The notes under the pieces are model-generated. The model did not search any database. It was not told where the DNA came from and saw only the letters and a program-made list of their open reading frames with translations. A program made the translations under genes and the position numbers. Positions 536 to 20,265 of a stretch of 21,728 bases of DNA are shown here, piece after piece. Within the stretch, counting starts at the first letter, position 1. Every line of letters starts with the position of its first letter. Where the stretch lies: positions 1 through 21,728 of IMG/VR virus record IMGVR_UViG_3300045135_003211, one strand, 5' to 3'. Source of the stretch: a virus.

Positions 536-3500
536 GAACCGTTACCGCAACCGCCTGGGTTGTGGCATTTCCGGCCACATCGGTGGCTGTCACGTTCAGG
601 GTCATTGGCCCTTGCCCCGGCGGGGCCATAACCGCGCCCGATGGAAGCAACAGGTCGCTGCCGTTCAGAACGAAGCCGTTTGCGGGGCCGGCGATGCTCC
701 AGACAACGCCGTCTTCGCTGGCCTCCAACGTGCCGACCGTGGTCTCGCGTTCGTTCAGGGTGAAGCTGGCGCCCAGGATCTGCGGGGCAGCGGTATCGAT
801 CACAATTTGCTGGTTGTATGTCTGACCCTCGGTTCCCGACAGGGTGTCCACCACCTTGGCGGTGATCTCGAAATTGGCGGTTCGGGCAGTCGAGGCGGGA
901 TCAAGGACGCTGAAGCTGCGCCCCGAAACGGTTGCCTGCACGGGCGTTCCGCCGGCAAAGCTGACCATCAGCACCTGTCCCGGCGCCAGATCGGCATCAA
1001 GGCTGCCGCGGAAGATGCGCCCGGTAATCGCCTCGCGCGTGATAAAGTCGGAGGCCGAAGCGCCGCTGTCGCGCGTCATCGAGGTGAAGCTGATCGCCTG
1101 AGTGGGAACACGCTGCACGGTCAGGACGCCATCGGCAAAGGGCCACTGCGCGGGATCGCTGGGCAGGCTGGTGCCGATATCGACGCTGCGCAAGAGACCG
1201 CCAGCATCCAAGAATTGCAGCAGTCCGCGTTGGTCTTGCGGCAGGTCGCCTTGGACATGGTATTCTATGCTGCTGCCATCCGCACCGCTGCCAAGCACCA
1301 GACGCTCGCCCAGTTGCAGGTCGGTGATAACCAAAGGCGCCGCCATCCCCTCTGAACTGACAGGCGCCGCCTGAACATCGAATGTGTCGATGCCGCCGCC
1401 CCCGGTCAGGGTGTCCGCGCCGCCGCCGCCATTCAGCGTATCATTCTGCGCGCTGCCGATCAGAGTCTCTGGGGCGGATGTCCCGGTCAGGGTGACGGCG
1501 ATCGTCGCATCGCGCGCGCTCAGCGCCTCGATCGCGGTAATCCCTGTTGCAGCGCCCAGATCGAACGTGCCGCGCAGGCTGAGGGTGTCAATACCATTGC
1601 CCCCGTCGATCGTATCCCCGACGCGGTAGGCGATCACGTCATCGCCTTCGCCAGCAAGGATGGTGTCACCCCCGCCCCCGCCCAGGATCGTGTCGTTGCC
1701 CGCCGATCCGGTGATCGTGTTCGCCGCGGCCGTGCCGATCACGGTCACATCCACCCCGGTCGCGTCCGAGGCATCAACGTTCACCGCCGTGAACAGCGCA
1801 TCGCCATCAACTGCGATCCGCCCGGTCGGGGCCGTCACCGCAACGGCGGGCAGGTCCACCCGCAGGCTGGTTGCAGCGGTTGCACCATCCAGCACAAGCG
1901 TGCCCGATCCGGGCGCCACCGTGGCAAAGGCGGTAGGCGACTGCGATAGCGTGATCGTTGCCGCCTCAGAGGCCAGCGTGTTGGTTGTATCCTGCGCCGT
2001 GACGGTGATTGTGCGCTGCGGGGCCGTCGCGCCCTCGGCAGGTTCGTAGGTGCTGACAAAGGCGACCTGCTGCAGGATCGCATCAAAGGCGCCCAGTGCG
2101 GCCTGCTGCGTGCCCGAGGCCAACACCAGACCGCCATCGGCGCCAGCCGTGACCGTGATCGCGTTTGCTGCGGCAAAGGCCGTTCCGGCTTGCGTCAGGA
2201 CCAGTTGATCGCCGGTCTGGCGGCCAACTTCGTCGATCGTCAGCGTCAGGCTGTGCAGGGTTGTGCTGTCCACGTCGCGGATTTGCGCCCGCGGGGCCAA
2301 CACAAGCCCCTTGCCGTGCAGACCCGCGACAAAGGTTGCCTCGGCGCCGGTTCCAGCCGCGTCGGCGCCATTCAGGTCAACCACCGGGGCGTCGGCGCGC
2401 CCCTTAGTCTGCACCTGGGCAAGGTCGGCGCGCTGAACCAGGCCTTCGGCATCGGTCAGCTCAAGCGTGATGCGCCGCACGCCAGTGCCCGGCGCCTCCG
2501 AGGTATTGGCGAAGGTGATCGCACGGAGCGCGGCCTGATAGTCTGCAACCGTGGCTGCGCCCGTCAGGGTCATGACCCCGGCTTGGGCGTCATAGTCGGC
2601 GGAAATGGCCGAAGCCTGCCCGCTGAGGGCCAGTTCATCGCTGCCCGCCTTGAAACCCGAAGCGATCATAACCCGGGCCGAGGCAACGTCGGTGGCGTCA
2701 GGATCGGTCACTGTCAGCGTGGGGGCAAGCGTTACAGCCGCCTCGCCTTCGACCGCAACAACCGGCGTCGTCGGGGTCGCACCGATCACCAGCGGGTCGT
2801 TTACCGCCTCGACCGTCACGCTGCGCACCACCGACACGGTCTGCCCGGCCTGACCGTTGACAGCATCGACATCGGTCAATTCAATCGTCAAGGCACGTTG
2901 GCCTGCCACGGGGGCATCGCCCTCGGTGGCAAAGGTCACTTGGCGCAGCAGGGACTGATAGGCGGCGCGACTTGCGATGCCGCTGATGCTCAGACTGCCG
3001 GTCCCGGCATCATAGGTTACACCCAGCGTCGTCGATGCGCCCAGCGCAAGCATGTCGCCAACCTCGGGGTTGGAGATCGTGACCACGGCCCCCGCCATCT
3101 GCGCGCTGTCCACATCCGTGATGGTCAGGTTAGGGGCGACGGCAGTTGCCGCACCGCCTTCAACGTGACGTGCCGCCGCAGCCGTCGCAGGCAGGACAAC
3201 GGGTGCATCGTTGACGGGCGTGATCGGGATCGCAACCGTTGTCGCGGCCGAGTTCAGGCTGGGCAAGGCCGCATCCACCACCACATAGCGCAGGCTTGCC
3301 CCGCTGGTGACATCCGCCGCCGGCGTAAAGCGCAGCCCAAGCGCCCCGCCGGTCAGGGCCAAAGGCGTCACGCCTGCGCCAAGGGCAATCGCATTGCCTG
3401 CGGCGTCGCTGAGCGTGCCCCCCGTCACCCCAAGGATCCGGATGGAGGTCGGTGTCGTTCCGTCCGCATCCGACAGCACGGCCGGTTGCAGCGTCAGGTT

Positions 3501-6500
3501 CACGGCTTCTGGTGTCTGATCCTCGGTGATCGGGGCAATCGGCGCGGTTGGAATGCCGCCGGCCTCGGGCGCGACATTGTCGATGGTCTGAAGCGTGATC
3601 GTCACCGGATCGGGATCGGCGCTGGCCACATCGCGGTCCGAGACAGCGACGGTCAGGCTGGGGGATTGCCCTTCGGCAACCGTCAGCGTCAGACCGGCCA
3701 GGCTGGCATTTACTTCCGCTGCCGTGCCGCTCAGCACCAGCGTGGTGCCGCCACCGGTTGCGCCGGGCGCCGACAAGGTGCCACGCGTTGCCGTCAGCGT
3801 TACGTCAAGGATGGCCGAGTCCGCATCCCGGACCGAAATCTCGCCCACGGGCGAGGCGACAGCAACCTTGACCGCGACGGCGTCCGCAGGGGCCGTCAGA
3901 ACGGGCGCCGCCGCCGCGATTGCAACATCGACCCGGCCGCTGGCATCGGCGGTCAGCGCATCATTGTCGCTGAGAATATAGTCGATCTGGCCACCGGTCA
4001 GGCCAGGCCGTGCCACGAAGGTCAGTCCGGCAAGCGCCGCGGTCACCTCGGCTGCGGTGCCCGACACCTGGATCGAATCCGTATCGGGCAACACCGATGC
4101 ACCACCCGGATCCGCAATCGACAAGGCCCCATAGGCCGAGATCAGCGTTAGTGTAACATCGTCACCATCGACATCGGCGACTGTGATCGGGGCGATCGCC
4201 GCCCCGGTTCCCGCAGTGACCGACGCCGTCGCGGGGGCGTCAATCGTGGGCGCATTGTGAACGGTCATGGCGTTCGTGGCGCTGCCAACGCGGCCACCGG
4301 CAGACACCGTCACCTGCACTTCGGCGCTGGATGCCTCGCCCTCGGCGGTGAAGGTCAGCCCCATAAGTTGCACATTCACCTCAGACAGGCTGCCCTGAAC
4401 GGTCGCAAGCGAGGGGGTTCCGTTCTCACCTGTTATCGTCACTGTCAGCGGATCGTCAACGCTATCGCGGAAATACTCCACCATGACCGGCAGCATCACC
4501 GCTTCACCGGCGGCGACATCGGACATGCCCATCATCAGCACTTCGGGAATGAAGGGATCATCATCGTGGATCACGCCGACGGCAGATGACGTGCCCAGCT
4601 TCACCGTGCCGGTAGGATCCGAGAGCGACACAAGAAACGACCGGTCGCCGTCACGGTCTTCGTTGCCCGCCAGCGCGATCTCAATCTCTGCTGTCACCTG
4701 GCCCGCTTCGAAGGTCAGTTGGCCCGAGGGGATCTGGCCGCTGGCGAAATTGGCAGCCCCAACCTGATCCGAGGTGACAACCCGGTAACCTATGGTGGCG
4801 GCCACATCGACATTGCCCGACCGAGTAACGACAAAGCGAAGCGTGGCAGCGTCACCCGTCTGGCCTTCAAGAACATCATCGTTGGCTGCCACCGCTTCGA
4901 TGTCAAAGCGCACTGGCACGACAACCCCGACCGAGGCGGCCTCGACAGCTGAGCTAAAATCATCCCCCGACAGCAGCGTAACATCTTCACCTTTCAGGTA
5001 ATCTGCCAGCACTTGCGCGGCTTCGCCCTGGGCCACAACCTGCACGCGCGCGATCTCGGTCAGCTGCCCGACCGGCGACAGGTCAGCGCCGGCGGCCGCG
5101 ATCTGGGCAACTGCGCCGCCGACCACGGTTGCGAAATCAGCCTGCTGCCCGGATGTCACCGCAGGCACAAGTTCAGACGCCAGGCTGGCAAGAAAGCCGG
5201 TCGGGCTGGCATCGGCAAGCGAGGTTGACAACCCGCCCGAGGTGTAGTCCGTAGCCGCAATCCGCCCGGCCAGTGCCTCGAACACCGCCACACTGGCGCC
5301 GCGCTGATCGTCATAGGTCTCTGGCATAAGGGCGACCATCGCCTCGGACGCAATCTCGACAACGGTCGCGACTGCGGCAGCGATCCGCTGAAATGCCACG
5401 GCATCCGCGGCTGCGGTCGCGTCGCTGCCCGATGCGCTGGCAAAGGGATCGTAGCCGCGCATCTTGGCCTCGTTCGGGCCAGGCATATCGTCCTCATTCG
5501 GACCGCCCGATGTCCCGAACATCGCTGTGCGTACGACATGATAGGCCTCTGCGGTGGTCCCGCCTTCCAGGCGCTCGACCGTGCGGATCAGGGTCGAAAT
5601 CGGGCTGATTACGGAATAGCCCGCCGGCGCCTCGTATTGAGAGTTGAAGTCTAACCCTGTGGAAATGTCGGTGCCGCCATACATAATTAGCGGTCCGCTT
5701 GCGCCCAGGATTGAGAATCCCCCTGTTGGATCGGTCACGGCCACAGCGTCATCGGCGCTGAGGACCCGATTGCCGTCATTATCAGCAAATATCGTCACGC
5801 CATCGAGATAGCCGTCAACCGCACCACCCTGGGTGCTGCCGTCAACAATCACAACGCTGGTTGAGCGGACGTTGAAATCGGTCGTCAAGCTGTTTCCGGC
5901 GGCGTCAGAGGCAACAAGGGTAAGCCCCGTCACTTCAAGGACGTCGCCACCCTCAGCCGTCACGAAGGATTGGTCGTCGTTGGTGACGGTATAAAGGAAG
6001 TCAAACGAAGTGCCGATGGCCGGCGCCTGCGGATCAAGCGTTGCGATCCGCGCGGCGGTCCCTATCGTGATCGCAAGCTCCGCCTGATCCAGTGCCCCGG
6101 TGTCCAACGTAACCCGCTCATTGAAACTGACGGTGAACCGCAAAACGTCGGCCGTATCGCCGGCCGTATAGGTGCCCGCGTCCGGCAGTTCGATTTCCTC
6201 AACCTGCGGCGCCTCAGTGTCAAGGATGACCGTCGTCGTGGAAGACGTCGAGGAGTTACCAGCAGCATCCGTCTGCGCCACAGATACGGTGACACTACCC
6301 TCTCCAAGCGTATCAACCTGGTCAGAGCTCAGCGCAATCGCGTCAGCACCACCTGTCCCGGTGATGGTTTTCGTCACCGTCCCGCTCTGACCGTCAAACG
6401 TCGCGACAATTGATGCTCCGTTCTCACCAGTCGCAGTGATCACGCCTGCGGCAGCCTCAGCAGCTGTCGCTCCTCCGGCAACACCAGTGCCAAGCGCAAG

Positions 6501-8528
6501 TGTCGGCGTGTTCGGAACAACCGTGTCAATCGTGAAGGTCGTCGTGGAAGACGTCGAGGAATTACCAGCAGCATCCGTCTGCGCCACAGACACCGTGACA
6601 CTACCCTCTCCAAGCGTATCAACCTCGTCAGAGCTCAGCGCAATCGCGTCGGCACCACCTGTCCCGGTGATGGTCTTCGTCACCGTCCCGCTCTGACTGA
6701 CAAACGTCGCAACAATCGATGCGCCGTTCTCACCAGTCGCCGTGATCACACCAGCTGCAGCCTCAGCAGCCGTCGCGCCTCCAGCAACACCAGTGCCAAG
6801 CGCAAGTGTCGGCGTGTTCGGAACAACCGTGTCAATCGTGAAGGTCGTCGTCGAAGACGCTGCCGTTTGTGCATTACCAGCAGCATCCGTCTGCGCCACC
6901 GATACGGTGACACTACCCTCTCCAAGCGTATCAACCTGGTCAGAGCTCAGCGCAATCGCGTCAGCACCACCTGTCCCGGTGATGGTTTCCGTCACCGTCC
7001 CGCTCTGACCGTCAAACGTCGCAACAATCGATGCTCCGTTCTCACCAGTCGCAGTGATCACACCAGCTGCAGCCTCAGCAGCCGTCGCGCCTCCAGCGAC
7101 ACCAGTGCCAAGCGTAAGTGTCGGCGCATCGGGTGCTTGCGTATCAACATCATAGGTCGCCGAGGTCACTTCGGCCGTTGGCGCATTCCCTGCACGATCG
7201 ACAAAGTCTGTGGACAGCCGGACAACATTCCCCTCCGCCGTTACATCTGCATCGGCTGTCAGTGTGGCTGTATAGACGAAATGATCGATGTCACCGCTAG
7301 TCTCTCGCACTGGACCAGAAAGGTTGCTGAGTTGCGCGTTCTGGGCGGTCAGATCGTCCAGATCGAAAAACACCACCGCCTCGGAAAAGCGGATCGTAAC
7401 AGTCGCGGTCTCACCCGCCGCCAAGCTAGCGCGGCTGAGCGTGATGACCGCTAGAGGCGGGGTGGTGTCGGGCGTCGAGGGCGAAAGATCGCCCACCAGC
7501 GCACGCGCCTCGGTCACAGCGTCGCGCAGCCCCGTGGCGAAGTCTTCCCCAAGCGTACCGGCCTCAAGCTGCGAAACCAGCACATCGGTGCCTGCGATCT
7601 GCGCGGCGACGATATCGACGAGGCTGCCACCCTCGGCTTCAACCAGCTCGTCAATGACATCGAAAAGGGCCTTTGCCGCAGTCGCCGCCGATGCCGCCTC
7701 GGCCCCATCCCCGAGGCCGGCAGCAGCCCCCAGCGCAGTCTCCAGCAGTTCGTCCCCCAAGGTCAGAGAGGCTTGACCGTCGATCTGCGCGGCGATTACG
7801 CCAAGTGCAGCCCCAACCGCGGCCTGCGCGGCCTCGGCGCCCGCCTCGGGGGCCAGGCTTTGGGCCAGCAGCATCACGGTAGCGATCTTCGCGGCAGCCG
7901 CTTGCGCGGCCAGCGCCCCGTCATCGCCTGCCGCCGCGCCGGCGAAGACATCGGTTGTCAGTAGGTCAATCGATGGGTCAATCCCCAGTGCGATGCCCAC
8001 CTGCGCCTGCGCCTCAGATGCAGAAAGCGTGCCCCCCTCGGCGTCAATCAGCGCCTGGACTAGCGTCGTCAGCGGCGAAACCACCGTCGACCCAGCCGGC
8101 GCCATCATCACCGCATCAAACGGCAGCCCCGTGCTGACGTCAAAACTCCGGTCGGTCGGCTCTGCCACGATAATGCCGCCACTACCGGCAAGGCCCGAAT
8201 AGGCGCCCGAAGCATCTGTCTCTACCGCGTCGCTGGCGATGCCGTTCACCAGTCGGAAGACCCGCGCAAACGCGATGTAGCCATCCGACACAACGCCGTC
8301 GGCGTCATCCGGGCCGGGATCGGCCTCGGGCAGTGCGCCACCGCCGCCACCGCCGCCACAGGCCGCCAGCAGGAACGGCAATACCGCAAGCGCCGACACA
8401 TTGCGCCGAAGACCACGCGCCGGGCTATGCGACAGCCGCCGCAGCGCCTCGGCGAAGCGCTGCGCATCCAACGGGGCGGGGTTCGACAACAACGCATTGC
8501 TGGGGCGGCTTGGGGGTGGCGACATCAT
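1..8528 (-). CDS. Giant multidomain repeat surface protein (lipobox, Ig-like, Calx-beta, cadherin-like, RTX, putative-Ig repeats), C-terminus beyond window
   Basis: One minus-strand frame is open from the ATG at 8528 to the window edge (2842 codons, no stop); I confirmed the phase at several points. A purine-rich GAGAGGA ribosome site lies just upstream. Residues 38-57 give RGLRRN, a hydrophobic stretch and a lipobox ending LLAAC (Cys57), then seven glycines. Residues 82-353 are an Ala-rich domain opening with DGY. About 354-455 is Ig-like. About 461-768 hold three near-identical ~102-aa Ig-like repeats and 769-895 another Ig-like unit. 905-1200 repeats the DGY-type domain. About 1210-1322 is a Calx-beta domain ending in HDDD. 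About 1330-2090 are cadherin-like repeats. 2264-2383 hold RTX nonapeptides such as GSAGNDTILGGGG. From about 2665 come 95-aa putative-Ig (He_PIG-like) repeats. Known relatives are calcium-dependent adhesins; an adhesion or biofilm role and surface location are inference. The C-terminal secretion signal, if any, is outside the window. Confidence 0.93.
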   Translation of the reverse strand, partial: MMSPPPSRPSNALLSNPAPLDAQRFAEALRRLSHSPARGLRRNVSALAVLPFLLAACGGGGGGGALPEADPGPDDADGVVSDGYIAFARVFRLVNGIASDAVETDASGAYSGLAGSGGIIVAEPTDRSFDVSTGLPFDAVMMAPAGSTVVSPLTTLVQALIDAEGGTLSASEAQAQVGIALGIDPSIDLLTTDVFAGAAAGDDGALAAQAAAAKIATVMLLAQSLAPEAGAEAAQAAVGAALGVIAAQIDGQASLTLGDELLETALGAAAGLGDGAEAASAATAAKALFDVIDELVEAEGGSLVDIVAAQIAGTDVLVSQLEAGTLGEDFATGLRDAVTEARALVGDLSPSTPDTTPPLAVITLSRASLAAGETATVTIRFSEAVVFFDLDDLTAQNAQLSNLSGPVRETSGDIDHFVYTATLTADADVTAEGNVVRLSTDFVDRAGNAPTAEVTSATYDVDTQAPDAPTLTLGTGVAGGATAAEAAAGVITATGENGASIVATFDGQSGTVTETITGTGGADAIALSSDQVDTLGEGSVTVSVAQTDAAGNAQTAASSTTTFTIDTVVPNTPTLALGTGVAGGATAAEAAAGVITATGENGASIVATFVSQSGTVTKTITGTGGADAIALSSDEVDTLGEGSVTVSVAQTDAAGNSSTSSTTTFTIDTVVPNTPTLALGTGVAGGATAAEAAAGVITATGENGASIVATFDGQSGTVTKTITGTGGADAIALSSDQVDTLGEGSVTVSVAQTDAAGNSSTSSTTTVILDTEAPQVEEIELPDAGTYTAGDTADVLRFTVSFNERVTLDTGALDQAELAITIGTAARIATLDPQAPAIGTSFDFLYTVTNDDQSFVTAEGGDVLEVTGLTLVASDAAGNSLTTDFNVRSTSVVIVDGSTQGGAVDGYLDGVTIFADNDGNRVLSADDAVAVTDPTGGFSILGASGPLIMYGGTDISTGLDFNSQYEAPAGYSVISPISTLIRTVERLEGGTTAEAYHVVRTAMFGTSGGPNEDDMPGPNEAKMRGYDPFASASGSDATAAADAVAFQRIAAAVATVVEIASEAMVALMPETYDDQRGASVAVFEALAGRIAATDYTSGGLSTSLADASPTGFLASLASELVPAVTSGQQADFATVVGGAVAQIAAAGADLSPVGQLTEIARVQVVAQGEAAQVLADYLKGEDVTLLSGDDFSSAVEAASVGVVVPVRFDIEAVAANDDVLEGQTGDAATLRFVVTRSGNVDVAATIGYRVVTSDQVGAANFASGQIPSGQLTFEAGQVTAEIEIALAGNEDRDGDRSFLVSLSDPTGTVKLGTSSAVGVIHDDDPFIPEVLMMGMSDVAAGEAVMLPVMVEYFRDSVDDPLTVTITGENGTPSLATVQGSLSEVNVQLMGLTFTAEGEASSAEVQVTVSAGGRVGSATNAMTVHNAPTIDAPATASVTAGTGAAIAPITVADVDGDDVTLTLISAYGALSIADPGGASVLPDTDSIQVSGTAAEVTAALAGLTFVARPGLTGGQIDYILSDNDALTADASGRVDVAIAAAAPVLTAPADAVAVKVAVASPVGEISVRDADSAILDVTLTATRGTLSAPGATGGGTTLVLSGTAAEVNASLAGLTLTVAEGQSPSLTVAVSDRDVASADPDPVTITLQTIDNVAPEAGGIPTAPIAPITEDQTPEAVNLTLQPAVLSDADGTTPTSIRILGVTGGTLSDAAGNAIALGAGVTPLALTGGALGLRFTPAADVTSGASLRYVVVDAALPSLNSAATTVAIPITPVNDAPVVLPATAAAARHVEGGAATAVAPNLTITDVDSAQMAGAVVTISNPEVGDMLALGASTTLGVTYDAGTGSLSISGIASRAAYQSLLRQVTFATEGDAPVAGQRALTIELTDVDAVNGQAGQTVSVVRSVTVEAVNDPLVIGATPTTPVVAVEGEAAVTLAPTLTVTDPDATDVASARVMIASGFKAGSDELALSGQASAISADYDAQAGVMTLTGAATVADYQAALRAITFANTSEAPGTGVRRITLELTDAEGLVQRADLAQVQTKGRADAPVVDLNGADAAGTGAEATFVAGLHGKGLVLAPRAQIRDVDSTTLHSLTLTIDEVGRQTGDQLVLTQAGTAFAAANAITVTAGADGGLVLASGTQQAALGAFDAILQQVAFVSTYEPAEGATAPQRTITVTAQDTTNTLASEAATITLSQSPTAFATVAPGSGTLVLDGATAATSLRVDLPAVAVTAPTGRIAVDGDALFTAVNVDASDATGVDVTVIGTAAANTITGSAGNDTILGGGGGDTILAGEGDDVIAYRVGDTIDGGNGIDTLSLRGTFDLGAATGITAIEALSARDATIAVTLTGTSAPETLIGSAQNDTLNGGGGADTLTGGGGIDTFDVQAAPVSSEGMAAPLVITDLQLGERLVLGSGADGSSIEYHVQGDLPQDQRGLLQFLDAGGLLRSVDIGTSLPSDPAQWPFADGVLTVQRVPTQAISFTSMTRDSGASASDFITREAITGRIFRGSLDADLAPGQVLMVSFAGGTPVQATVSGRSFSVLDPASTARTANFEITAKVVDTLSGTEGQTYNQQIVIDTAAPQILGASFTLNERETTVGTLEASEDGVVWSIAGPANGFVLNGSDLLLPSGAVMAPPGQGPMTLNVTATDVAGNATTQAVAVTVLNVNDTPTVTSQVAVTTVNEDAAYIYTFAGNDDDLIHGDILALSAETLPEWLTFNADTGVLSGTPGNADVGTHDVVLRVTDAAGAYSEESFTLTVENVNDEPTVTSQVAVTTVNEDGAYIYTFAGNDDDLIHGDILTLSAETLPEWLTFNADTGVLSGTPGNADVGTHDVVLRVTDAA
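6190..7135 (-). repeat. Three tandem ~306-312 bp repeats encoding Ig-like domains
   Basis: Inside the giant gene the unit containing ATGENGASIVATF and the linker TVVPNTPTLALGTG occurs three times. Equivalent bases lie at 7021, 6709 and 6403, so the periods are 312 and 306 bp (104 and 102 codons). The copies are almost identical in nucleotides. The six-base difference in period matches a short insertion (GNAQTAASS versus GNSSTSS) in the linker. Near identity at DNA level suggests recent duplication or gene conversion. Confidence 0.9.
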
Positions 8529-9184: not shown

Positions 9185-9244
9185 ACCCCAACGGCATCAC
9201 GTATGCCATGATGGTTTCATCAGAACCGAATGGAGGGCACATCG

Positions 9245-10261
9245 ATGACGACACGGATCAGCATGCTGGCAATCGACCTGGCAAAGGGCAGCTTTCAAGT
9301 CTGCGCAATTGGAGCGGATGGGGCGGTTCTGTACAACCGCGTATTATCGCGGCCTCGCCTAATAACACTTCTCGCAGAGCAGCCGGCCTGCATAGTTGCG
9401 ATGGAGGCCTGCGCCACCTCGCATTACTGGGGCCGCGTGGCGCAGTCCCACGGCCACGAGGTGCGCCTGGTGCCGGCGGCGTATGTAAAGCCGTTTGTCA
9501 AACGGCAAAAAAACGACATGGCTGATGCGGAAGCAATCGCGGAGGCGGCCTCGCGCCCGACCATGCGGTTCGTGGCCGTGAAGAGTGCCGAGACCCAAGG
9601 GCGCGCGGTGGCGTTCCGAACACATCAATGCTTGGTCAGGCAGCGCACGCAGCTCATCAACGCCCTCCGGGGGCATCTAGCAGAGTTTGGGTTGGTGGCG
9701 CCGAAGGGTCCGGCGAGCCTGAAGGTGCTTGAGAACGCGCTAGTCGATGAGACCAGCGGCCTCCCAGCCGCGGTGCGTGAGATGGGGACGATCTACCTTG
9801 AGCAGATCGAGCGGCTGACTGATGTCATCGAGCGGCTGGCGGGCGAACTCGAGGCAGCTTCGAAGACCGATGTGCAGCTGCGTCGGCTCTGCACCATCCC
9901 AGGGATCGGTCACGTCACGGCTGGTGCCGTCGCGGCGTTCGCACCGGATCTCGATACATTCGACAGCGGGCGCGACTTTGCCGCATGGCTTGGCCTGGTG
10001 CCTCGGCAGAGATCCAGCGGTGGCAAAACCAGGTTTGGTTCGGTCAGCAAGATGGGCCAGACCGACATCCGCCGCCTCCTGATCGTGGGCGCCATGAGCG
10101 TCATCCGCTGGGTGGTCCGCAAGGGCGGCAGCACGAACCGCTGGCTGGCTGCGCTGGTGGCGCGCAAGCCCAAGATGGTCGCGGCCGTCGCGCTGGCGAA
10201 CAAGATGGCTCGCATGATTTGGGCCATAACAACAAAGAAAGAAGATTATCGAATGGCGTGA
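9245..10261 (+). CDS. IS110-family (IS1111 group) DEDD transposase/recombinase
   Basis: A 338-aa protein of normal family length. The start at 9245 is chosen over the in-frame ATG at 9230 because a GGAGG site at 9233-9237 is correctly spaced for it. The N-terminal RuvC-like domain shows the DEDD acidic set: Asp11 in LAIDLAK, Glu54 in AMEACATSHYW, and Asp91 and Asp94 in KNDMADAEAI. The segment YVKPFVKRQKND is typical of the IS1111 group. The C-terminal Transposase_20-type domain starts around IPGIGHVTAGAV and carries SSGGKTR (Ser257/Ser258), where this family's essential serine lies. IS110 enzymes recombine DNA guided by an element-encoded bridge RNA. No frameshift or internal stop is seen, so it may be active. 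Confidence 0.95.
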   Translation: MTTRISMLAIDLAKGSFQVCAIGADGAVLYNRVLSRPRLITLLAEQPACIVAMEACATSHYWGRVAQSHGHEVRLVPAAYVKPFVKRQKNDMADAEAIAEAASRPTMRFVAVKSAETQGRAVAFRTHQCLVRQRTQLINALRGHLAEFGLVAPKGPASLKVLENALVDETSGLPAAVREMGTIYLEQIERLTDVIERLAGELEAASKTDVQLRRLCTIPGIGHVTAGAVAAFAPDLDTFDSGRDFAAWLGLVPRQRSSGGKTRFGSVSKMGQTDIRRLLIVGAMSVIRWVVRKGGSTNRWLAALVARKPKMVAAVALANKMARMIWAITTKKEDYRMA

Positions 10262-10536: not shown

Positions 10537-10923
10537 TTACAGGATGCGCCCTGAGCGAAGGGACGGCGCGAGATTGCGGATCGGTGGCTGTAGTTCCATG
10601 GCCTTGACCAAGGCTTCCGCAAAGCTGCGTCGATCCAGGGCATGGATGCGCAACGCGTCTCGTGTCACTTCGAGCGATTGGCACGCTTTGGGGCTATCGC
10701 CACAAATGGCGCTAGCGGTTCCGTCGCCATGAATGATGACTTGCCGTGGACAGCCCTCACCGCCGGGGTGCGGGCATGGGAGCGAGGCTGCCATTTTACC
10801 CGTTGCGGGCAAGAATGGCGCCACCGCTTTCCATTCCTCGTCAAGGCGCTGCTGCCAGCCCCAATGCGATGATCCGCCGTCGGTCAGCTCATCAAGCGCT
10901 TTCCAGAACTTCGAAATCATCAT
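10537..10923 (-). CDS. Cys-rich protein of unknown function, probably 3'-truncated by the IS
   Basis: The frame starts at the ATG at 10923 (a second ATG is adjacent) and overlaps the last 32 nt of the upstream minus-strand gene, so the two are probably translationally coupled. It encodes 128 aa beginning MMISKFWKALDELTDGG. A central block CPHPGGEGC...CGDSPKAC (Cys spacing X7 and X6) looks like a metal-binding site. A segment SLEVTRDALRIHALD follows. The stop TAA occupies 10537-10539, exactly where the IS right end is predicted, so the original C-terminus was probably lost. I do not recognise a named family. The operon partner is also unknown. Confidence 0.65.
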   Translation of the reverse strand: MMISKFWKALDELTDGGSSHWGWQQRLDEEWKAVAPFLPATGKMAASLPCPHPGGEGCPRQVIIHGDGTASAICGDSPKACQSLEVTRDALRIHALDRRSFAEALVKAMELQPPIRNLAPSLRSGRIL

Positions 10924-12094
10924 CTCTATCGGCCTCAGTTTGCAGTTTCCAGAAGCCGCGGGCCTTGAGCCAAGCTTCCACCAGGCTCGTGTCGGCATCG
11001 CGCTCGTAACGGGCAACGTTGACGGGACGGATCATCACCGAGCGTTCTTTCTTGTCGCCATCAAATGCCACCTTGAACTTGGCATATGTCAGCCGACCAA
11101 GGCTAAGCCGGGCCGCCCAGTCGCCCCCATAGGTCTCGAAAAGATCATCCGAGCGGCGAGTTTCATATTCGGGACAGGTGCCATCCCACATGCGGCCAAA
11201 CTCCACAAAACGGACCCGCGAAAGGCCAGGGATGTCCGCGCAGACGAGGGCGGCGGGGCCATTATCGATCAGGGGCTGCAGATTGTAGCGTTCAGCCCGT
11301 TCAAAATGCGCATCTTCTCCGAAAAGAACCATGCCGAGCGTTCTGAGATAAAGCTCTCGCTCGCCCTTCGTCTCCGCATTGACGCCAATCTCGTCGATCT
11401 CGGCATCATAGATCAGCACATCGTCCTTTTGCGGACGATAGAAGGCAATTCCATCCTTGCCATCTTCCTTGTGCTCCCCCTCCCGCCGCATGGGCTGACC
11501 ATGGCGCACCAGGATCCAGATGCGGTTCTCTTGGGGGAACACGAACACCCGCGATCCACGACCGCGGCGTTTGCTTTCAAACCATGGATCCATCAGGGCT
11601 TCCATCTCACGGCACTGGGCCTCGGAGATGACAATTTGGCCCTCAGATCCTGCCCTCTTGATCGACGTCCCTGCAAAATATGTGAAATTAGAGCGGTTGA
11701 AGGCGACAGTTTCCGCATGCTGGCGCTCAAGCAGATCAGGCTTTGCCAGCCAGATTTGAACGGCGATATCGGCGGGCGTGCTTTTGTCATCATGCGCAAT
11801 GTCGAGCCCGGCCGCTTCAGCGCGCTCGATCAGCTCATCCATCGGCTCTTTCCGGGCCGTCTCGTGCACGTAATAGAGCGCGTTCACCATGCTTTCGGGA
11901 ACAGCCTGATCCGGATTCATCAGGATGGCGGCGATAGTATCAAAGGGCATGTCTGAGGTGTCTGCAGCGGTCAGGTCGAGGCCTCGGCCGATGAAGTAAT
12001 CCGACCATGTTGATAAAAACAGAATGAGGCGATTAGGATCGATTTCTTTCAATCGAGAGGGGTTAGTGAATACACGAGGGTTGAACGTGGCCAT
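10892..12094 (-). CDS. Conserved-looking 400-aa protein of unknown function
   Basis: The start at 12094 (MATFNPRVFTNPSRL) is preferred over the ATG at 12127 because AGAAGGAAG sits just upstream with good spacing. The protein is acidic and soluble-looking, without signal peptide or membrane segment. Visible features are an N-terminal helical part (LILFLSTWSDYFIGRGLDL), a central SPADIAVQIWL-like segment (TPADIAVQIWLAKPDLLERQ), a charged middle with FESKRRGRGSR, and a C-terminal part ending KARGFWKLQTEADRDDDFEVL. I see no nuclease, ATPase or helix-turn-helix motif. It forms a two-gene unit with the Cys-rich gene downstream and diverges from the phage replication operon. Such accessory pairs beside phage early regions are often defence or exclusion functions, but here that is only speculation. 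Confidence 0.8.
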   Translation of the reverse strand: MATFNPRVFTNPSRLKEIDPNRLILFLSTWSDYFIGRGLDLTAADTSDMPFDTIAAILMNPDQAVPESMVNALYYVHETARKEPMDELIERAEAAGLDIAHDDKSTPADIAVQIWLAKPDLLERQHAETVAFNRSNFTYFAGTSIKRAGSEGQIVISEAQCREMEALMDPWFESKRRGRGSRVFVFPQENRIWILVRHGQPMRREGEHKEDGKDGIAFYRPQKDDVLIYDAEIDEIGVNAETKGERELYLRTLGMVLFGEDAHFERAERYNLQPLIDNGPAALVCADIPGLSRVRFVEFGRMWDGTCPEYETRRSDDLFETYGGDWAARLSLGRLTYAKFKVAFDGDKKERSVMIRPVNVARYERDADTSLVEAWLKARGFWKLQTEADRDDDFEVLESA

Positions 12095-12260: not shown

Positions 12261-12297
12261 TGTGCTACATCTCGATGTTCCTGTATTGTTCTTATCC

Positions 12298-12325
12298 GAC
12301 ATTTTGTAGGTCTCGTCGGTAAGTG
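12298..12325 (+). repeat. Left copy of a 28-bp imperfect direct repeat flanking the replication module
   Basis: This 28-bp stretch matches 17261-17288 at 22 positions, with a perfect 12-bp core GTCTCGTCGGTA at 12310-12321. It lies in the leader of the replication operon. The other copy lies just after the operon's last gene. Confidence 0.75.
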
Positions 12326-12419: not shown

Positions 12420-12626
12420 ATGATTGATCCCGATGATCGCGAGCGCCAAGCGCTCACGCAGGCCATGAAGTCCATGGGCCTGCTGATGGACGAAATCGGC
12501 TGGTCGACCCGCTTCAAAGACCTCACGGCCATGCAGGCCGGAAAACTGGCTGAAGCGGCGGTCGATGGCTTCCAAGAAAGCCTTTTGGCCTCGGCGCAAC
12601 CCGCAAGTTCGGAGGTGCCGTTTTGA
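12420..12626 (+). CDS. Small phage protein of unknown function (68 aa)
   Basis: The ATG at 12420 follows GGAGGG with a 5-nt gap. The protein starts MIDPDDRERQALTQAMKSMG and is predicted largely helical and acidic, with no Cys cluster or membrane segment. Its stop overlaps the TTG start of the nuclease gene by 4 bp (TTGA), so it is the first gene of the replication operon. Small proteins in this position beside a Cas4-like nuclease and primase recur in alphaproteobacterial prophages. The function is unknown; a replication accessory role is inferred from position only. Confidence 0.8.
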   Translation: MIDPDDRERQALTQAMKSMGLLMDEIGWSTRFKDLTAMQAGKLAEAAVDGFQESLLASAQPASSEVPF

Positions 12627-13372
12627 CCGACGCCCTTTTGGACTTCAATCACCGCGAAAAGCCCCCGAGCTTTGCCGAGGGTGTCAACGCGCTCATCGAC
12701 CATGCTCTTGTCACTGAGAACGACGCGCGGCCAACCCGCGATTATCTGGGCGGCAGTCGGTTGGGCGATGCTTGTGCGCGGCGCCTGCAATACGAATACC
12801 TCAAGACCCCGAAGGATGAAGGCGGCGGTTTTTCAGGCCAGTCGCTTCGGATATTTGCGCTTGGGCATGTTCTGGAAGATCTCGCGATCGACTGGCTGCG
12901 CAAGGCGGGCTTCGATCTGCGTACGCGCAACCGACACGGCGACCAGTTCGGGTTTTCCGTCGCAGGCGGTCGGGTCAAAGGACATGCCGACGGTGTGGTG
13001 GTCGCGGCGCCAAACGGGATGGCGGTGCCTGCGCTTTGGGAATGCAAATCAGCCAACGCCAAAAACTGGCGCGCCATCGAAAAGCATGGGGTGGTCAAGG
13101 CCAAGCCAATCTATGCAGCGCAGATCGCGCTCTATCAGGCCTATCTCGGGCTGACAGAGACGCCGGCGCTCTTTACGGCAATCAACAAAGACACCTGTGA
13201 AATCTGGCATGAGTTGGTGCCCTTTGACGGGGCGCTTGCACAGGCCGCCAGTGATAAGGCTGTCCAGATCCTGCGCGCCTGCGATGCGGGCGAAACTCTG
13301 CCCCGCCACACGACCGACCAAGAACATTTTGAATGTCGGTTTTGCTCCTACGCCGCGAGGTGCTGGGCATGA
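12623..13372 (+). CDS. Cas4/RecB-like PD-(D/E)XK exonuclease with Fe-S cysteines
   Basis: A 249-aa protein starting at TTG (12623). The choice is supported by GGAGGT at 12611-12616 and a 4-bp overlap with the gene before. The nuclease core shows GHVLEDLA (Glu85), GHADGVV (Asp123) and WECKSA (Glu140-x-Lys142), the PD-(D/E)XK set, followed by YAAQIALYQAY, the usual Q-x3-Y helix. Cys51, then Cys238, Cys241 and Cys247 (CRFC...C near the end) are arranged as in Cas4 and AddB, whose four cysteines hold a 4Fe-4S cluster. No CRISPR array or other cas gene is present, so this is a phage recombination and DNA-end-processing nuclease rather than an adaptation protein. The exact polarity is unknown. Its stop overlaps the primase start by 4 bp. 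Confidence 0.88.
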   Translation: MTDALLDFNHREKPPSFAEGVNALIDHALVTENDARPTRDYLGGSRLGDACARRLQYEYLKTPKDEGGGFSGQSLRIFALGHVLEDLAIDWLRKAGFDLRTRNRHGDQFGFSVAGGRVKGHADGVVVAAPNGMAVPALWECKSANAKNWRAIEKHGVVKAKPIYAAQIALYQAYLGLTETPALFTAINKDTCEIWHELVPFDGALAQAASDKAVQILRACDAGETLPRHTTDQEHFECRFCSYAARCWA

Positions 13373-15759
13373 CCGATCATGTGCAAACAGCCGATGTGGC
13401 CGAGCCAGTTGTCCCTGACGCGAATACGATCGCGCTCTATGCAGATGTCGTGTTCGGCTATTGCGAGTTCCTCGCACCCGTCCGGGCGCTCGCCGAAAAG
13501 GGCGCCGCTGACGCCCCACCGCATACGCCGTTTCTGTCAGTTGATGGGGATCTGGCCGTCAAACTGACCCATCAAGCGGACTGGGCCGCGCAAACAGGAA
13601 TGGCGCTCTTCGTCGTGCCGGGGACGGTCCATGAGGCGGGCACTGCACGCTCGGAGCATATCGCCCAGATGCAGGTTGTCCTGGTCGATATTGATCACGG
13701 CGATATCGCAGCAAAGCGCAGCCATCTTATTCAGCACCTCGGCACGCCAACGCTCGAAGTGGCATCTGGCGGCGTTACACCCGAGGGGCAAGATAAGCTC
13801 CACCTCTACTGGCGGCTGACAGAGCCTGCTGAAGGCGAGGATATCGCCCGGGTCTGTCGGGCGCGTCAGATGATTGCGGCCAAGGTTGGTGGTGATCCCT
13901 CGTTCAAATCTGCGCATCAGCCCATTCGGGTGGCGGGGTCGGTTCATGCCAAGTCTGGCGTGAAACGGCTGGTCTCTATCCTCGATTATCGCCCCGTTGA
14001 TTTTGACCTTGGTGAACTGGCGGAGGCCATCTTCGCCATGCCTCCGATGGAGGGCCTTGCAGCTGAGGCGCTGGATTTTAACGCCGTACCCGGTGAGCGC
14101 GGCAGCGTGCCTGAGCTTTTTGCCAAGCCCGTTCGCGAAGGTGGGGTGGATGGCACGACCCGGTTTGACGCGCTTTCACGCGTGATTGGGTATTGGATCC
14201 GGCGCAGTCGCGAAGGGCATGTGACGCCTGCGGAAGCCTGGGCCGAAATTGTGGCCTACAACGACGCGCGCATTGATCCCCCTTGGCCCGATGCGCGCCT
14301 GCGACAAGAGGCAGAGCGGCTATGGCGGCTCGATCAGGCCCGCAACGGGGACATTCCCGATGAGGAAGGCCTCGAGCCTGATGCCACCTATGGGGGTGGG
14401 AATGGCTCAGGCAATGAGGGCCCAACCCCTGTGCGGTTTTCCGAGGATGCACTGGCCTCGACCTTTGCTGCCCAGCATTCGGATGCCTGGCGCTATGTCG
14501 CTGGCTGGGGCCAATGGCTGACCTGGACTGGGCGCATCTGGAAGCGCGAGGACACGCTGCAGGCCTTTGATCTGGCGCGCCAGGTCTGTCGTGCAGCCGC
14601 CGTGCGCTCACCATCCTCAAAGGTCCGCACAAAGCTCTCAGCCGCCTCGACGGTTGCCGCTGTCGAACGATTGGCCCGCAGTGACCGTCGCCTTGCCACG
14701 ACAACCGACGTCTGGGACCGTGACCCATGGCTCTTTAACACAACAGCCGGGGTGCTGGATCTGCGGAGCGGGCAATCCCAGCCACATGATCAGTCACTCT
14801 GCATGACGAAGATCGCGGCCGCGGCGCCGAAGGGCAATTGCCCGACATGGCTCGCCTTCCTCGATACGGTCACAGGCGGCGACGCCGAGCTGCAATCCTA
14901 CCTCCAGCGCATGGCGGGTTATTGCCTCACCGGCGTTACCAGTGAGCACGCGCTTTTCTTCCTCTACGGAACAGGGGCCAACGGCAAATCCGTCTTTGCC
15001 AACACGCTGACGGAAATCCTCGGCGACTACGCCACAGTCGCGCCCATGGACATGTTCATGGCGAGCCACGGGGATCGCCATCCAACCGATATGGCAGGGC
15101 TGCGGGGCGCGCGCGTGGTCACGTCCATTGAGACGGAACAAGGCAGCCGGTGGGCTGAAAGTAAGCTGAAAGCGCTGACCGGGGGCGACAAGATCACCGC
15201 GCGCTTCATGCGGCAGGACTTCTTCGAGTTTATACCGCAGTTCAAGCTGCTGATCGTTGGCAACCACAAGCCCACAATTCGCAATGTGGATGAGGCCATG
15301 AAGCGGCGGCTTCACATGGTGCCGTTCACCGTCACCATCCCTGCCGCCAAGCGCGACAAGCGCCTGCCTGACCGTCTTCTCGCCGAGCGGGATGGGATCC
15401 TCGCCTGGGCGCTCGAAGGCTGTCTGGAGTGGCAACAGCATGGCCTGCGCCCACCGCCCGCCGTGATGGCCGCCACCGAGGATTATTTCGAGGCTGAGGA
15501 CGCCCTTGGACGCTGGATCGAGGAGCGCTGCGAGACCGGCAACAAGGCCTTTTGGGCCGGATCTACAGATCTCTTCAACAGCTGGAAGGCTTGGGCCGAG
15601 GCAAACGGGGAATATGCCGGCTCGATGAAGCGGTTTTCCGAGACGCTGAGCACCAAGGGGTTCACCCGCGAAAACACCCGTAAGGCCCGCGGCTTCCTCG
15701 GGATCAAGCTTTGCGACAACAACTCTGACTTATTCACAGGAGATTACAATGACCAATAA
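13369..15759 (+). CDS. Phage primase-helicase (AEP/RepB-like primase plus D5/P4-type SF3 helicase)
   Basis: A 796-aa protein. The ATG at 13369 is chosen for its 4-bp ATGA overlap with the nuclease gene and the GAGG at 13357-13360. The N-terminal third resembles a RepB-like archaeo-eukaryotic primase, with VDIDHGD (Asp107, Asp109) as metal ligands, SGGVTPEGQDKLHLYW, and SAHQPIRVAGSVH (His183). A linker leads to a D5_N-like region. The superfamily 3 helicase has Walker A GTGANGKS (residues 534-541), then VVTSIETEQGSRWAESKLKA, LTGGDKITARFM, and the sensor-like LLIVGNHKP with MKRRLH. It would prime and unwind the phage origin. The 3' end overlaps the resolvase gene by 11 nt. A fragment of a homologue lies at 9086-9163. 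Confidence 0.95.
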   Translation: MTDHVQTADVAEPVVPDANTIALYADVVFGYCEFLAPVRALAEKGAADAPPHTPFLSVDGDLAVKLTHQADWAAQTGMALFVVPGTVHEAGTARSEHIAQMQVVLVDIDHGDIAAKRSHLIQHLGTPTLEVASGGVTPEGQDKLHLYWRLTEPAEGEDIARVCRARQMIAAKVGGDPSFKSAHQPIRVAGSVHAKSGVKRLVSILDYRPVDFDLGELAEAIFAMPPMEGLAAEALDFNAVPGERGSVPELFAKPVREGGVDGTTRFDALSRVIGYWIRRSREGHVTPAEAWAEIVAYNDARIDPPWPDARLRQEAERLWRLDQARNGDIPDEEGLEPDATYGGGNGSGNEGPTPVRFSEDALASTFAAQHSDAWRYVAGWGQWLTWTGRIWKREDTLQAFDLARQVCRAAAVRSPSSKVRTKLSAASTVAAVERLARSDRRLATTTDVWDRDPWLFNTTAGVLDLRSGQSQPHDQSLCMTKIAAAAPKGNCPTWLAFLDTVTGGDAELQSYLQRMAGYCLTGVTSEHALFFLYGTGANGKSVFANTLTEILGDYATVAPMDMFMASHGDRHPTDMAGLRGARVVTSIETEQGSRWAESKLKALTGGDKITARFMRQDFFEFIPQFKLLIVGNHKPTIRNVDEAMKRRLHMVPFTVTIPAAKRDKRLPDRLLAERDGILAWALEGCLEWQQHGLRPPPAVMAATEDYFEAEDALGRWIEERCETGNKAFWAGSTDLFNSWKAWAEANGEYAGSMKRFSETLSTKGFTRENTRKARGFLGIKLCDNNSDLFTGDYNDQ

Positions 15760-16345
15760 AACAAGGGCTGTGACGGATGTGACGGGTTCCCCCTATATAG
15801 GCGTCACGCGCGCACATGCGCGCACGTGTAACAGTGATAGTGAACTATCCGCTGCATCCGTCACACCCTCTGCACAAGCCAAATCAGTCCTCGCCCTTGA
15901 CCTCGGAACCACCACTGGATGGGCGCTGCGCGGCTTTGATGGACTGATCACAAGCGGCACGGCCAGCTTCAAGCCTGGGCGCTATGACGGCGGCGGCATG
16001 CGTTACCTGCGGTTCACGAATTGGCTCTCAGAGATCGACCGCCTGTCTGGTCCAATCGAGTCAATTTATTTCGAAGAAGTACGCCGTCATCTCGGCACCG
16101 ACGCAGCGCATGTCTATGGCGGTCTCATGGCCACGCTGACCGCATGGGCGGAACTGCGTGGCGTGCCCTATCAGGGCGTGCCGGTTGGCACCATCAAGCG
16201 TCATGCCACGGGCCACGGAAACGCGCCCAAGAAGGCCATGACCGCAGCGGCACGAGCCCGTGGCTATAGCCCGGCAGACGACAACGAGGCCGACGCGATT
16301 GCCATCCTTCACTGGGCTTTGGAAACCCAAGGAGGCGTTGCATGA
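15749..16345 (+). CDS. RuvC-like Holliday-junction resolvase with a ~45-aa N-terminal extension
   Basis: The 198-aa frame starts at the ATG at 15749, preceded by AGGAGA, and overlaps the primase gene by 11 nt. The RNase H-fold core begins at SVLALDLGTTTGWAL (Asp51). It continues with IYFEEVRRH (Glu109/Glu110), GTIKRHATGHGNAPKKAM, and DDNEADAIAI (Asp177/178, Glu180, Asp182), the acidic set of RuvC-type resolvases. Such phage enzymes cut branched DNA before packaging. The first ~45 residues are low-complexity and are encoded by a stretch full of inverted repeats (15769-15865). They may not be part of the folded enzyme. No alternative ATG lies between, although an in-frame GTG exists at 15770. 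The gene ends with a 4-bp overlap into the next gene. Confidence 0.88.
   Translation: MTNKTRAVTDVTGSPYIGVTRAHARTCNSDSELSAASVTPSAQAKSVLALDLGTTTGWALRGFDGLITSGTASFKPGRYDGGGMRYLRFTNWLSEIDRLSGPIESIYFEEVRRHLGTDAAHVYGGLMATLTAWAELRGVPYQGVPVGTIKRHATGHGNAPKKAMTAAARARGYSPADDNEADAIAILHWALETQGGVA
15769..15865. repeat. Nested inverted repeats and TGTGACGG direct repeats at the primase/ruvC junction
   Basis: TGTGACGGA (15769-15777) and TGTGACGGG (15778-15786) are tandem 9-bp repeats. TGTGACGGATG (15769-15779) is the exact reverse complement of CATCCGTCACA (15855-15865). Inside this pair lie GCGCGCA/TGCGCGC (15808-15814, 15817-15823) and GATAGT/ACTATC (15836-15841, 15844-15849). Such a cluster directly after a primase-helicase gene is a candidate replication origin or operator. 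Confidence 0.6.
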
Positions 16346-17230: not shown

Positions 17231-17260
17231 AAAAAATCGCGTCGATGAAAAAAAGTTCCA

Positions 17261-17288
17261 GACACTTTTGCCGTCTCGTCGGTATGTG
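17261..17288 (+). repeat. Right copy of the 28-bp imperfect direct repeat
   Basis: It matches 12298-12325 at 22 of 28 positions, with the identical core GTCTCGTCGGTA at 17273-17284. It lies inside a small frame at 17245-17316 that could encode a 23-aa peptide (MKKSSRHFCRLVGMW...). Both copies can be read as RHF-x-x-LVG in one frame, so a shared peptide remnant is an alternative to a DNA-site explanation. Confidence 0.75.
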
Positions 17289-17608: not shown

Positions 17609-18865
17609 ATGGACGTCGTCGACCTGCCGCTCGAGCAAATCATTCCCTATGCGCGCAACCCGCGGCGCAACGAGCAGGCGATTGCAACGGTCGCAGCCTC
17701 GATCCAAGAATTCGGCTGGCGGCAGCCCATCGTCGTGGACGAGGCGATGGTGGTTCTCGCTGGGCACACGCGGCTGGAAGCGGCCCGCAAGCTCGGCTTC
17801 AAGACTGCGCCGGTGCATGTCGCCAAGGGGCTGACGGTCAGCCAAGCACGCGCCTTCCGGATCATGGACAACCGCTCTAGCGAGAATGCCGAGTGGGACA
17901 AGGACCTCTTGAATCTCGAACTGGCCGATTTGCTCGAGGCGGATTTTGACCTCGGGCTGACCGGCTTTACCGATGACGAGTTGAACGCGCTGATGTCGAG
18001 CCTCGAGGAAGGCACCGGCCCGCAGGAGGGTGAGGACGATGTTCCGGAAACCCCTGAGGACCCGATCAGCCGCCCGGGCGATCTCTGGATGCTCGGTAAC
18101 CACCGGCTGCTCTGCGGCGACAGCACGGTCGTGACCGACTACGAGAAGGTCCTTGGGGGTGTAAAAGCGGATCTCTGTTTTTGCGACCCTCCCTATAACG
18201 TGGATTATGCCGGGGGTGTTGGGGCCGAAAAAGCCGGTAAGGGCCGTCGGATTAAGAACGACGCTTTGGGCGACGCATTCGGCCAGTTCCTCTACGACGC
18301 ATGCGTGCTGATCAACACCTACACGGATGGCGCGGTCTATATTTGCATGTCGTCCAGCGAGCTGCAGACGCTGCAGGCAGCATTCAAGTCCGCAGGCGGT
18401 CATTGGTCGACCTTCATCATCTGGGCGAAGGACCGCTTCACCCTCGGCCGCGCCGATTATCAGCGCCAGTACGAGCCGATCCTCTATGGCTGGCCTGAGG
18501 GCGTAAAGCGCCACTGGTGTGGCGATCGGGACCAGGGCGATGTGTGGAACATCCAGCGGCCATCAAAGAATGACCTGCACCCCACCATGAAGCCGGTGGC
18601 GCTGGTCGAACGCGCTATCCGGAACTCGAGCCGAAAAGGCGATCTGGTGTTTGACCCGTTCGGCGGAAGTGGCACGACGCTGATCGCTGCTGAAAAGACG
18701 GGGCGCCACGCATCGCTGATCGAACTCGATCCGAAATACGTCGATGTCATCATCCGTCGTTGGCAAGAGTTCACCGGTCACGAGGCGCAGTTGTCGGAAA
18801 CGGGGCAAAGCTTCAAAGACGTCGAACGGAAACGGGAGGCGGGACATGCAGCAATCGCTGTTTGA
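17609..18865 (+). CDS. ParB-N-like/DNA (adenine N6?) methyltransferase fusion
   Basis: A 418-aa protein starting at the ATG at 17609 after an AAGGA site. Residues 1-95 are a ParB/Sulfiredoxin-like domain (LPLEQIIPYARNPRRNEQ, then VVLAGHTRLEAARKLGF with the GHTR box). The methyltransferase domain follows, with catalytic DPPY at 193-196 and the AdoMet-binding DPFGGSGTT at 349-357, followed by LIELDPKYVDVIIRRW. This order (motif IV before motif I) is the permuted beta-class arrangement, and DPPY favours adenine-N6. Phage enzymes of this kind typically act as orphan methylases that guard phage DNA or mark it for regulation. Its last 20 nt overlap the nuclease gene, so the two products may work together. 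Confidence 0.93.
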   Translation: MDVVDLPLEQIIPYARNPRRNEQAIATVAASIQEFGWRQPIVVDEAMVVLAGHTRLEAARKLGFKTAPVHVAKGLTVSQARAFRIMDNRSSENAEWDKDLLNLELADLLEADFDLGLTGFTDDELNALMSSLEEGTGPQEGEDDVPETPEDPISRPGDLWMLGNHRLLCGDSTVVTDYEKVLGGVKADLCFCDPPYNVDYAGGVGAEKAGKGRRIKNDALGDAFGQFLYDACVLINTYTDGAVYICMSSSELQTLQAAFKSAGGHWSTFIIWAKDRFTLGRADYQRQYEPILYGWPEGVKRHWCGDRDQGDVWNIQRPSKNDLHPTMKPVALVERAIRNSSRKGDLVFDPFGGSGTTLIAAEKTGRHASLIELDPKYVDVIIRRWQEFTGHEAQLSETGQSFKDVERKREAGHAAIAV

Positions 18866-19370: not shown

Positions 19371-19633
19371 AACAGTCACGCCTCATGTCTCTGGTCGAGG
19401 CGGTGACGAATGTCGCGGTCGGCTACGGCCTCGCGGTGGTCACGCAGATCATAGTGTTCCCGTGGTTCGGTCTCGAGGCCGAGCTCGGCGAACATATGGC
19501 GATCGGCATGGCCTTCGTCGGTGTCTCGCTCATCCGAAGTTACCTGCTGCGTCGCATGTTCGAGCGGATCACGGTCGCCACTCGCTCTGGCGGCCATGGC
19601 GAACATGTAGAACCTGAACAGATCCGTCGATGA
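19367..19633 (+). CDS. Small membrane protein, DUF7220-like (88 aa)
   Basis: It starts at the ATG at 19367, overlapping the nuclease stop by 4 bp. Two hydrophobic segments are visible, about residues 10-32 (VEAVTNVAVGYGLAVVTQII) and 42-58 (EHMAIGMAFVGVSLIRSYLL), separated by a short FPWFGLEAELG loop and followed by basic RRMFER. The pattern matches a two-span inner-membrane family common in alphaproteobacterial phages and known to me as DUF7220; the role is unknown. The last ~21 codons overlap, on the opposite strand, the 3' end of the ParE toxin gene, and that tail is polar and unlike the core. Confidence 0.8.
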   Translation: MKQSRLMSLVEAVTNVAVGYGLAVVTQIIVFPWFGLEAELGEHMAIGMAFVGVSLIRSYLLRRMFERITVATRSGGHGEHVEPEQIRR

Positions 19634-20152: not shown

Positions 20153-20179
20153 GATGAGCTCCTGCAAAGCATCTAATTC

Positions 20180-20199
20180 AGTGCGAATATAGTGCGAAT
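20180..20199 (-). promoter_or_regulatory. Presumed toxin-antitoxin operator: two AGTGCGAAT repeats
   Basis: AGTGCGAAT occurs at 20180-20188 and again at 20191-20199, an 11-bp period that is about one helical turn. It lies 28-47 bp upstream of the antitoxin start. Phd/YefM proteins autoregulate through repeated sites at this position, so this is a reasonable operator candidate. Confidence 0.55.
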
Positions 20200-20265
20200 T
20201 TCGATGCGCGTCGAGAGGTGCCTCGCTCACTCTAGCGCGTAAATCCGAGTGGCGGGTGGGTGAGT

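Follow-up and report, generated by a model that had tools for sequence, protein, structure and literature searches.

A candidate LexA-repressed, sigma-driven induction switch in temperate prophages of Alphaproteobacteria

The window analysed here is a virus contig from IMG/VR, 21,728 bases long. Gene A, encoding 400 aa, was located on the minus strand at 10892..12094 (ATG at 12094, stop ending at 10892), and gene B followed it on the same strand. The genes to the right of A were, in order, a DUF6511 protein of 68 aa (12420..12626, plus strand), a Cas4-type exonuclease (12623..13372, plus; phrog_1990, E 5e-70), a D5-type phage primase/helicase (13333..15759, plus), a RuvC-like Holliday junction resolvase (15749..16345, plus; phrog_159, E 9e-29), DUF6362, a ParB-domain DNA methyltransferase (17609..18865, plus) and terminases. 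The DUF6511 gene was the first of the divergent early operon. The earlier note had described A and B as divergent from the phage replication operon, and this was upheld. A ParE-type toxin with a Phd/YefM antitoxin was also found within the phage region on the opposite strand (19569-20230, minus).

On the left, the window departed from the intact prophages. Prophage homology (96% identity to a related locus, L002, over 7.6 kb) ended at base 10558. The reading frame of gene B (10558..10923, minus) continued to 10537, and its residues past 10558 were foreign sequence. Thus, of a ~370-aa protein, the B of the window retains just ~120 residues, corresponding to its N-terminal third with the Cys4 ribbon region. 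The break was adjoined by an IS110-family transposase (9230..10261, plus) that was full-length and not the IS debris supposed earlier. Beyond it lay an RTX/Ig-like adhesin-type frame, a single 2,841-aa ORF (6-8528, minus) with bacterial Ig-like, cadherin-like, Calx-beta and RTX calcium-binding repeats. This is an adhesin-type secreted protein foreign to the prophage, so the contig may contain a rearranged or mixed junction. The rest of B, a sigma gene, a second outward site and the Sak4-helicase operon were lost at the break. Since the window lacks the greater part of B as well as the sigma gene and the right-hand operon, the switch proposed below is broken in it. The conclusions on this defective element are therefore drawn from its relatives.

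Gene A showed a helical N-terminal part followed by an alpha/beta part in alignments, and the latter carried a conserved basic segment, KRRGRG(S/C)R...VRHGxPMRREG. The dN/dS ratio was about 0.1 (0.019/0.198 against L012 and 0.032/0.407 against L004), which indicated purifying selection on the gene. No match to A was found in Pfam, NCBIfam, PHROGs, PADLOC (E<=10) or PDB sequences, or in the isolated-phage collection. The plasmid search gave one weak match, which belonged to the A-like fusion family described below. The profile of A matched in 4 of 385 alphaproteobacterial genomes, so such prophages are uncommon per genome.

Structure searches were performed with predicted models. The AlphaFold2 model of A had a pLDDT of 74 and a pTM of 0.56. 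Foldseek gave human CENP-N as the best match (E 2.6e-5, probability 1.00) and E. coli RdgC as the next, and the closest viral models included phage proteins annotated as RdgC. The RdgC structures 2owl/2owy were matched with probabilities of 0.97-0.99 and TM-scores of 0.27-0.41 on the model of pTM 0.56, and TM-scores of the fold matches were mostly 0.3-0.5 on this mid-confidence model. The RdgC family PF04381 gave no match for A at E<=10. Comparison of A with an RdgC alignment by hhalign was not significant (probability 0.4%, E 0.15), and neither was that with lambda RexA (E 0.7). Membership of A in the RdgC or RexA family by sequence was rejected on these profile comparisons. Lambda RexA has the RdgC/Iml3-Chl4 fold and binds DNA nonspecifically (PMC11077077). 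As the profile comparisons with RdgC and RexA were not significant, the predicted resemblance of A to RdgC and CENP-N, the fold group of RexA, is a fold-level lead.

Gene B starts at ATG 10923 or 10920, which gives an overlap of 32 or 29 nt with A. The overlap was also counted in 111 loci from the last Met before a conserved FW. It measured 32 nt in 50 of them, 29 nt in another 28 and 35 nt in a further 16. Its recurrence across related loci means that the coupling of A and B, proposed from a single overlap, is conserved. B had also been called Cys-rich, and this held in the relatives: C50, C58, C74 and C81 (L012 numbering) were conserved in at least 90% of a set of 40 diverse homologues. Full-length B of ~370 aa, which the earlier note had suggested seeking, was found in intact relatives, and its dN/dS between relatives (0.074/0.544) indicated purifying selection. 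The B fragment of the window had no match in Pfam, NCBIfam, PHROGs or PADLOC (E<=10), full-length B had none in Pfam, PHROGs or PDB sequences, and the plasmid search gave none to B. The AF2 model of the full-length homologue from L012 (pLDDT 86, pTM 0.79) contained the Cys4 ribbon region, a central part of alpha/beta type and a domain at the C-terminus. The order of strands and helices in the model suggests that this last domain is a winged helix. A Foldseek search of the PDB with the B model gave no match. The description of the pair as unrecognised was upheld in Pfam, NCBIfam, PHROGs and PADLOC, and the unit is apparently undescribed.

Searches of viral and genome contigs recovered about 120 loci. 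A and B occurred together in about 90 related loci, as the co-occurrence check had called for, and a third partner was present there, a sigma-70-like gene (Sigma70_r2, E 3e-9) that also matched phrog_1740, RNA polymerase sigma factor. The order A-B-sigma was identical in all loci whose contig was long enough to be informative, and A lacked B only where a contig ended and in L059, a degenerate locus. Two flanking arrangements were observed, and A was the first gene of the operon in both. In Rhodobacterales-type phages, the trio was divergent from Cas4-primase-RuvC-ParB-methyltransferase and downstream of it came a small gene, a Sak4-like ATPase, a 211-aa protein, a helicase and a DUF2924/serine-recombinase module. 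The Acetobacteraceae-type phages had this last module on the divergent side of the trio instead. Within the temperate-phage family of Rhodobacterales/Acetobacteraceae, the trio occupies a fixed position in the core early region. This place was invariant in all informative loci, which contradicts the accessory-gene position assigned to the pair earlier.

The DUF2924-serine recombinase-small protein module was itself conserved in the trio family, in the second family described below and in Acidithiobacillus phage AcaML1. It was seen in L010 (14944-17104) and other loci, and in L010 a weak ParB-HTH match was obtained.

A LexA/SOS box, GTTCCTGTATTGTTC, was found upstream of A at 12277..12291 on the plus strand. 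It has the alphaproteobacterial form GTTC-N7-GTTC and reads GAAC-N7-GAAC toward A, which is the consensus of the alphaproteobacterial LexA box (PMC3091678). Of 41 distinct regions upstream of A, 26 contained the exact box, compared to 0.14 expected from shuffles, and always in one orientation. It was absent from the other 15, and the most distant trio, L101, showed neither the SOS box nor the paired site described next. The presence of a predicted LexA box in the promoter region suggests that the operon of A is LexA-repressed. A phage repressor was also searched for in two genomes with two Pfam families. Neither the G001 prophage region nor the A-carrying contig of G006 had a match to an HTH_3 or S24 repressor, and the only S24 match in G001 fell on another contig.

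A second signal accompanied the SOS box. The pattern TACC-N16-TGTCGG was found upstream of A in 38 of 41 regions, compared to 0.06 expected from shuffles. In the outward direction it reads CCGACA-N15-CGGTAnGTG, that is, two short blocks at near-fixed spacing. In the window, outward site 1 (CCGACA-N15-CGGTAAGTG; 12296..12325, plus) reads into DUF6511-Cas4-primase. Two inverted copies flanked the trio, the first preceding A and the second lying across the sigma gene's end, and both pointed outward, one into each early operon. A weight matrix built from these flanking sites recovered a third copy before the ParB-methyltransferase gene, both in an Allgaiera indica prophage and in the window (CAGACA-N15-CGGTATGTG; 17259..17288, plus), and the copy was at the same place in 14 of the loci scanned, these other relatives included. 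In complete genomes, the pattern CCGACA-N15-CGGTAnGTG was nearly restricted to these prophages. In G001 (4.3 Mb) it had three matches, all in the prophage. There were two in G006 and three in G232, and the matches in these three genomes were spaced and oriented like the sites of the trio and the methyltransferase. The reversed control pattern gave zero matches in six genomes or records. In G003, a second match adjoined a second A fragment. This is a mostly lost A gene (first 44 codons; G003:C1 1879930-1880195) with the outward site still in front of it. From their form and placement, we infer that the outward sites are sigma-dependent promoters.

Two other readings of the paired sites were considered. 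They might be operators bound by A and/or B rather than by the sigma factor, in which case the pair would be a lysogeny regulator that may repress or loop. The inverted sites bracket A-B-sigma as OL and OR bracket the lambda immunity genes (CI, cI-rexA-rexB), the C-terminus of B appears winged-helix-like in the secondary structure of its model, and A resembles nonspecific DNA-binding proteins. However, two blocks at near-fixed spacing that read into operons and recur as a third copy resemble a promoter more than a dimer operator, and we regard this reading as unlikely. The inverted 26-bp sites, with a serine recombinase linked to them, could also be crossover sites at which the phage enzyme inverts the A-B-sigma cassette. 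This invertible cassette was rejected because no informative locus carried an inverted cassette; in addition, the third copy lies elsewhere in direct orientation. We give it almost no credence, and the sites are treated below as putative promoters.

A second family of proteins gave further information on this point. It was reached from a distant match and consists of ~740-aa proteins with a central region homologous to A (hhalign probability 96%, E 2e-9). These A-like fusions were carried by viral contigs L165-L171, genome G418 and Shinella. They adjoined the DUF2924/serine-recombinase module, and a different sigma-like gene came after them, whose product matched Sigma70_r4_2 and phrog_1740. 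A different outward site, TGTCCC-N14-GRTGGCTTTT, was present at both ends of the A-like/sigma pair; L169 had the right-hand copy only, and the left-hand copy was a variant in L164 and L165. The SOS box was present in 4 of 8 second-family loci. The layout was thus kept while the site and the sigma gene changed, and among the evidence this argues most strongly for assigning the sites to the sigma factor. It also speaks against the operator reading, as the site changed along with the sigma-like gene and the A domain did not.

Other features of this family were noted. A third copy of its site, TGTCCC-N14-GGTGGCTTTT, was located after the Sak4 gene in Shinella (L172, 13585), so the second-family regulon may be larger. 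The C-terminus of the fusion was suspected to be B, which was not supported by hhalign. The fused A-like protein of L166 (7917-10145) matched phrog_37634, a family of function unknown (E 2e-19), and this family could be linked to the A-B-sigma switch.

Based on the above results, we propose that A-B-sigma is a LexA-repressed, sigma-driven prophage induction switch. The genomic evidence for it is strong, and comprises the co-occurrence and order of the genes, the SOS boxes, the outward sites with their specificity, and an independent second family in which sigma gene and site both differ. The biochemistry is inferred, and on balance we favour this reading. The SOS box and the outward promoter-like site together would account for the A-B-sigma unit. 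A and B would be the first two genes of a three-gene immediate-early operon in alphaproteobacterial temperate phages. In the lysogen, host LexA would repress the operon through the GAAC-N7-GAAC box upstream of A. DNA damage would remove LexA, and A, B and the sigma-70-like protein would be made. The sigma factor would then direct RNA polymerase to the phage promoters CCGACA-N15-CGGTAnGTG. The left promoter would serve the divergent early operon, which is Cas4-primase-resolvase or, in Acetobacteraceae phages, DUF2924-serine recombinase. The right promoter, reading from the end of the sigma gene, would serve Sak4-helicase, and in many phages a third would serve the ParB-methyltransferase genes. 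A, with its RdgC/RexA/CENP-N-like predicted fold, and B, with its Cys4 ribbon and winged-helix-like domain, may be DNA-binding partners that help or gate the sigma step. A wider version can be entertained more tentatively, at somewhat below even chances. It holds that there is a widespread alphaproteobacterial temperate-phage superfamily without a CI-type repressor, in which host LexA directly gates an operon for A, as a DNA-binding protein of kinetochore/RdgC fold, a zinc-ribbon regulator and a dedicated sigma factor, private promoters of this sigma factor launch the early operons, and sigma factor and promoter have co-diverged between lineages.

The earlier note had placed the pair among defence or superinfection-exclusion modules. 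A RexA-like exclusion role agrees with the predicted fold group of A, which includes lambda RexA. However, the pair lies at an invariant core position in an early operon, under apparent SOS control, with a sigma partner and bracketing promoter-like sites. No PADLOC match, no RexB-like membrane partner and no significant RexA profile match were found. A defence or exclusion module is therefore very improbable as an account of the unit. A side role of A in exclusion is conceivable through the RexA-type predicted fold. Rather than defence, the probable role of A-B-sigma is that of a new switch by which dormant phages are awakened.

For A, a role as an RdgC-like DNA clamp in replication and recombination of the phage was also considered. 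The linkage to the sigma gene would then reflect operon membership only, with no part in a switch. The RdgC-like fold matches are in line with such a role, as are the neighbouring genes for Cas4 exonuclease, Sak4 annealing ATPase, RuvC, primase and serine recombinase. Phage AcaML1 bears on this reading as well, since its A-like gene occurs with DUF2924 and serine recombinase. The hypothetical protein gp6 of this phage (L178, 8845-11100) was 27% identical to an A-like fusion over 88% of its length. It resembled the second family in adjoining DUF2924 and serine recombinase, and is a relative from outside Alphaproteobacteria. In contrast to the trio, the AcaML1 gene lies in the serine-recombinase operon, with a PIN/HTH pair beside it and no adjacent sigma gene, which counts against the induction switch. 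In both alphaproteobacterial families, however, A adjoins B/sigma directly under the SOS box and outside the recombination operons. A clamp role alone seems doubtful to us, a little more so than the operator reading, and the induction switch is preferred. In the PIN/HTH pair, gp8 is annotated as an excisionase and has an HTH_17 domain, and it adjoins gp7, a PIN-domain protein; the two may be a toxin-antitoxin pair.

If the proposed switch is true, lysogeny in these phages would be controlled by a host-LexA-gated sigma cascade in place of CI/Cro. A role would be assigned to two protein families without annotation, and a CENP-N/RdgC-type fold would be placed in a phage regulatory operon. The short DNA pattern could then locate SOS-inducible prophages that carry the A-B-sigma switch. 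In addition, the two families would provide two natural sigma-promoter pairs that differ in sequence and share a layout, by which sigma specificity would be directly testable.

The trio was compared with known systems. Xpf of the Bacillus prophage PBSX is an SOS-induced, prophage-encoded sigma-like factor, as is proposed for the trio sigma. However, Xpf serves the late genes of PBSX, is under the Xre repressor and has an unrelated gene neighbourhood.

Lambda RexA has the fold that is predicted for A, and its gene lies next to the lysogeny switch, on which RexA exerts a bias (PMC11077077). A differs from RexA and RdgC in its extra helical N-terminus of ~130 aa and in the absence of a significant sequence-profile match. 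The partners are also different, namely a Cys4-ribbon protein and a sigma factor for A, and the membrane protein RexB and CI for RexA. In LexA-controlled temperate phages such as GIL01 (PMC6182141), an early phage promoter is under host LexA, and this is apparently also the case for the trio. The trio differs from GIL01 in its downstream phage sigma-like factor, its own promoter motif and its two new protein families. GafA/GafYZ, activators of alphaproteobacterial gene transfer agents (GTAs), form a small regulator operon of a phage-like element by which RNA polymerase is recruited to a few phage promoters (PMC11150451), as is proposed for the trio. Split and fused forms exist in GafA/GafYZ (PMC11150451), just as separate A and the long A-like fusion were found here. 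GafYZ act on the GTA cluster together with RpoD and IHF (PMC11150451), whereas in the trio early operons would be served and LexA is implied.
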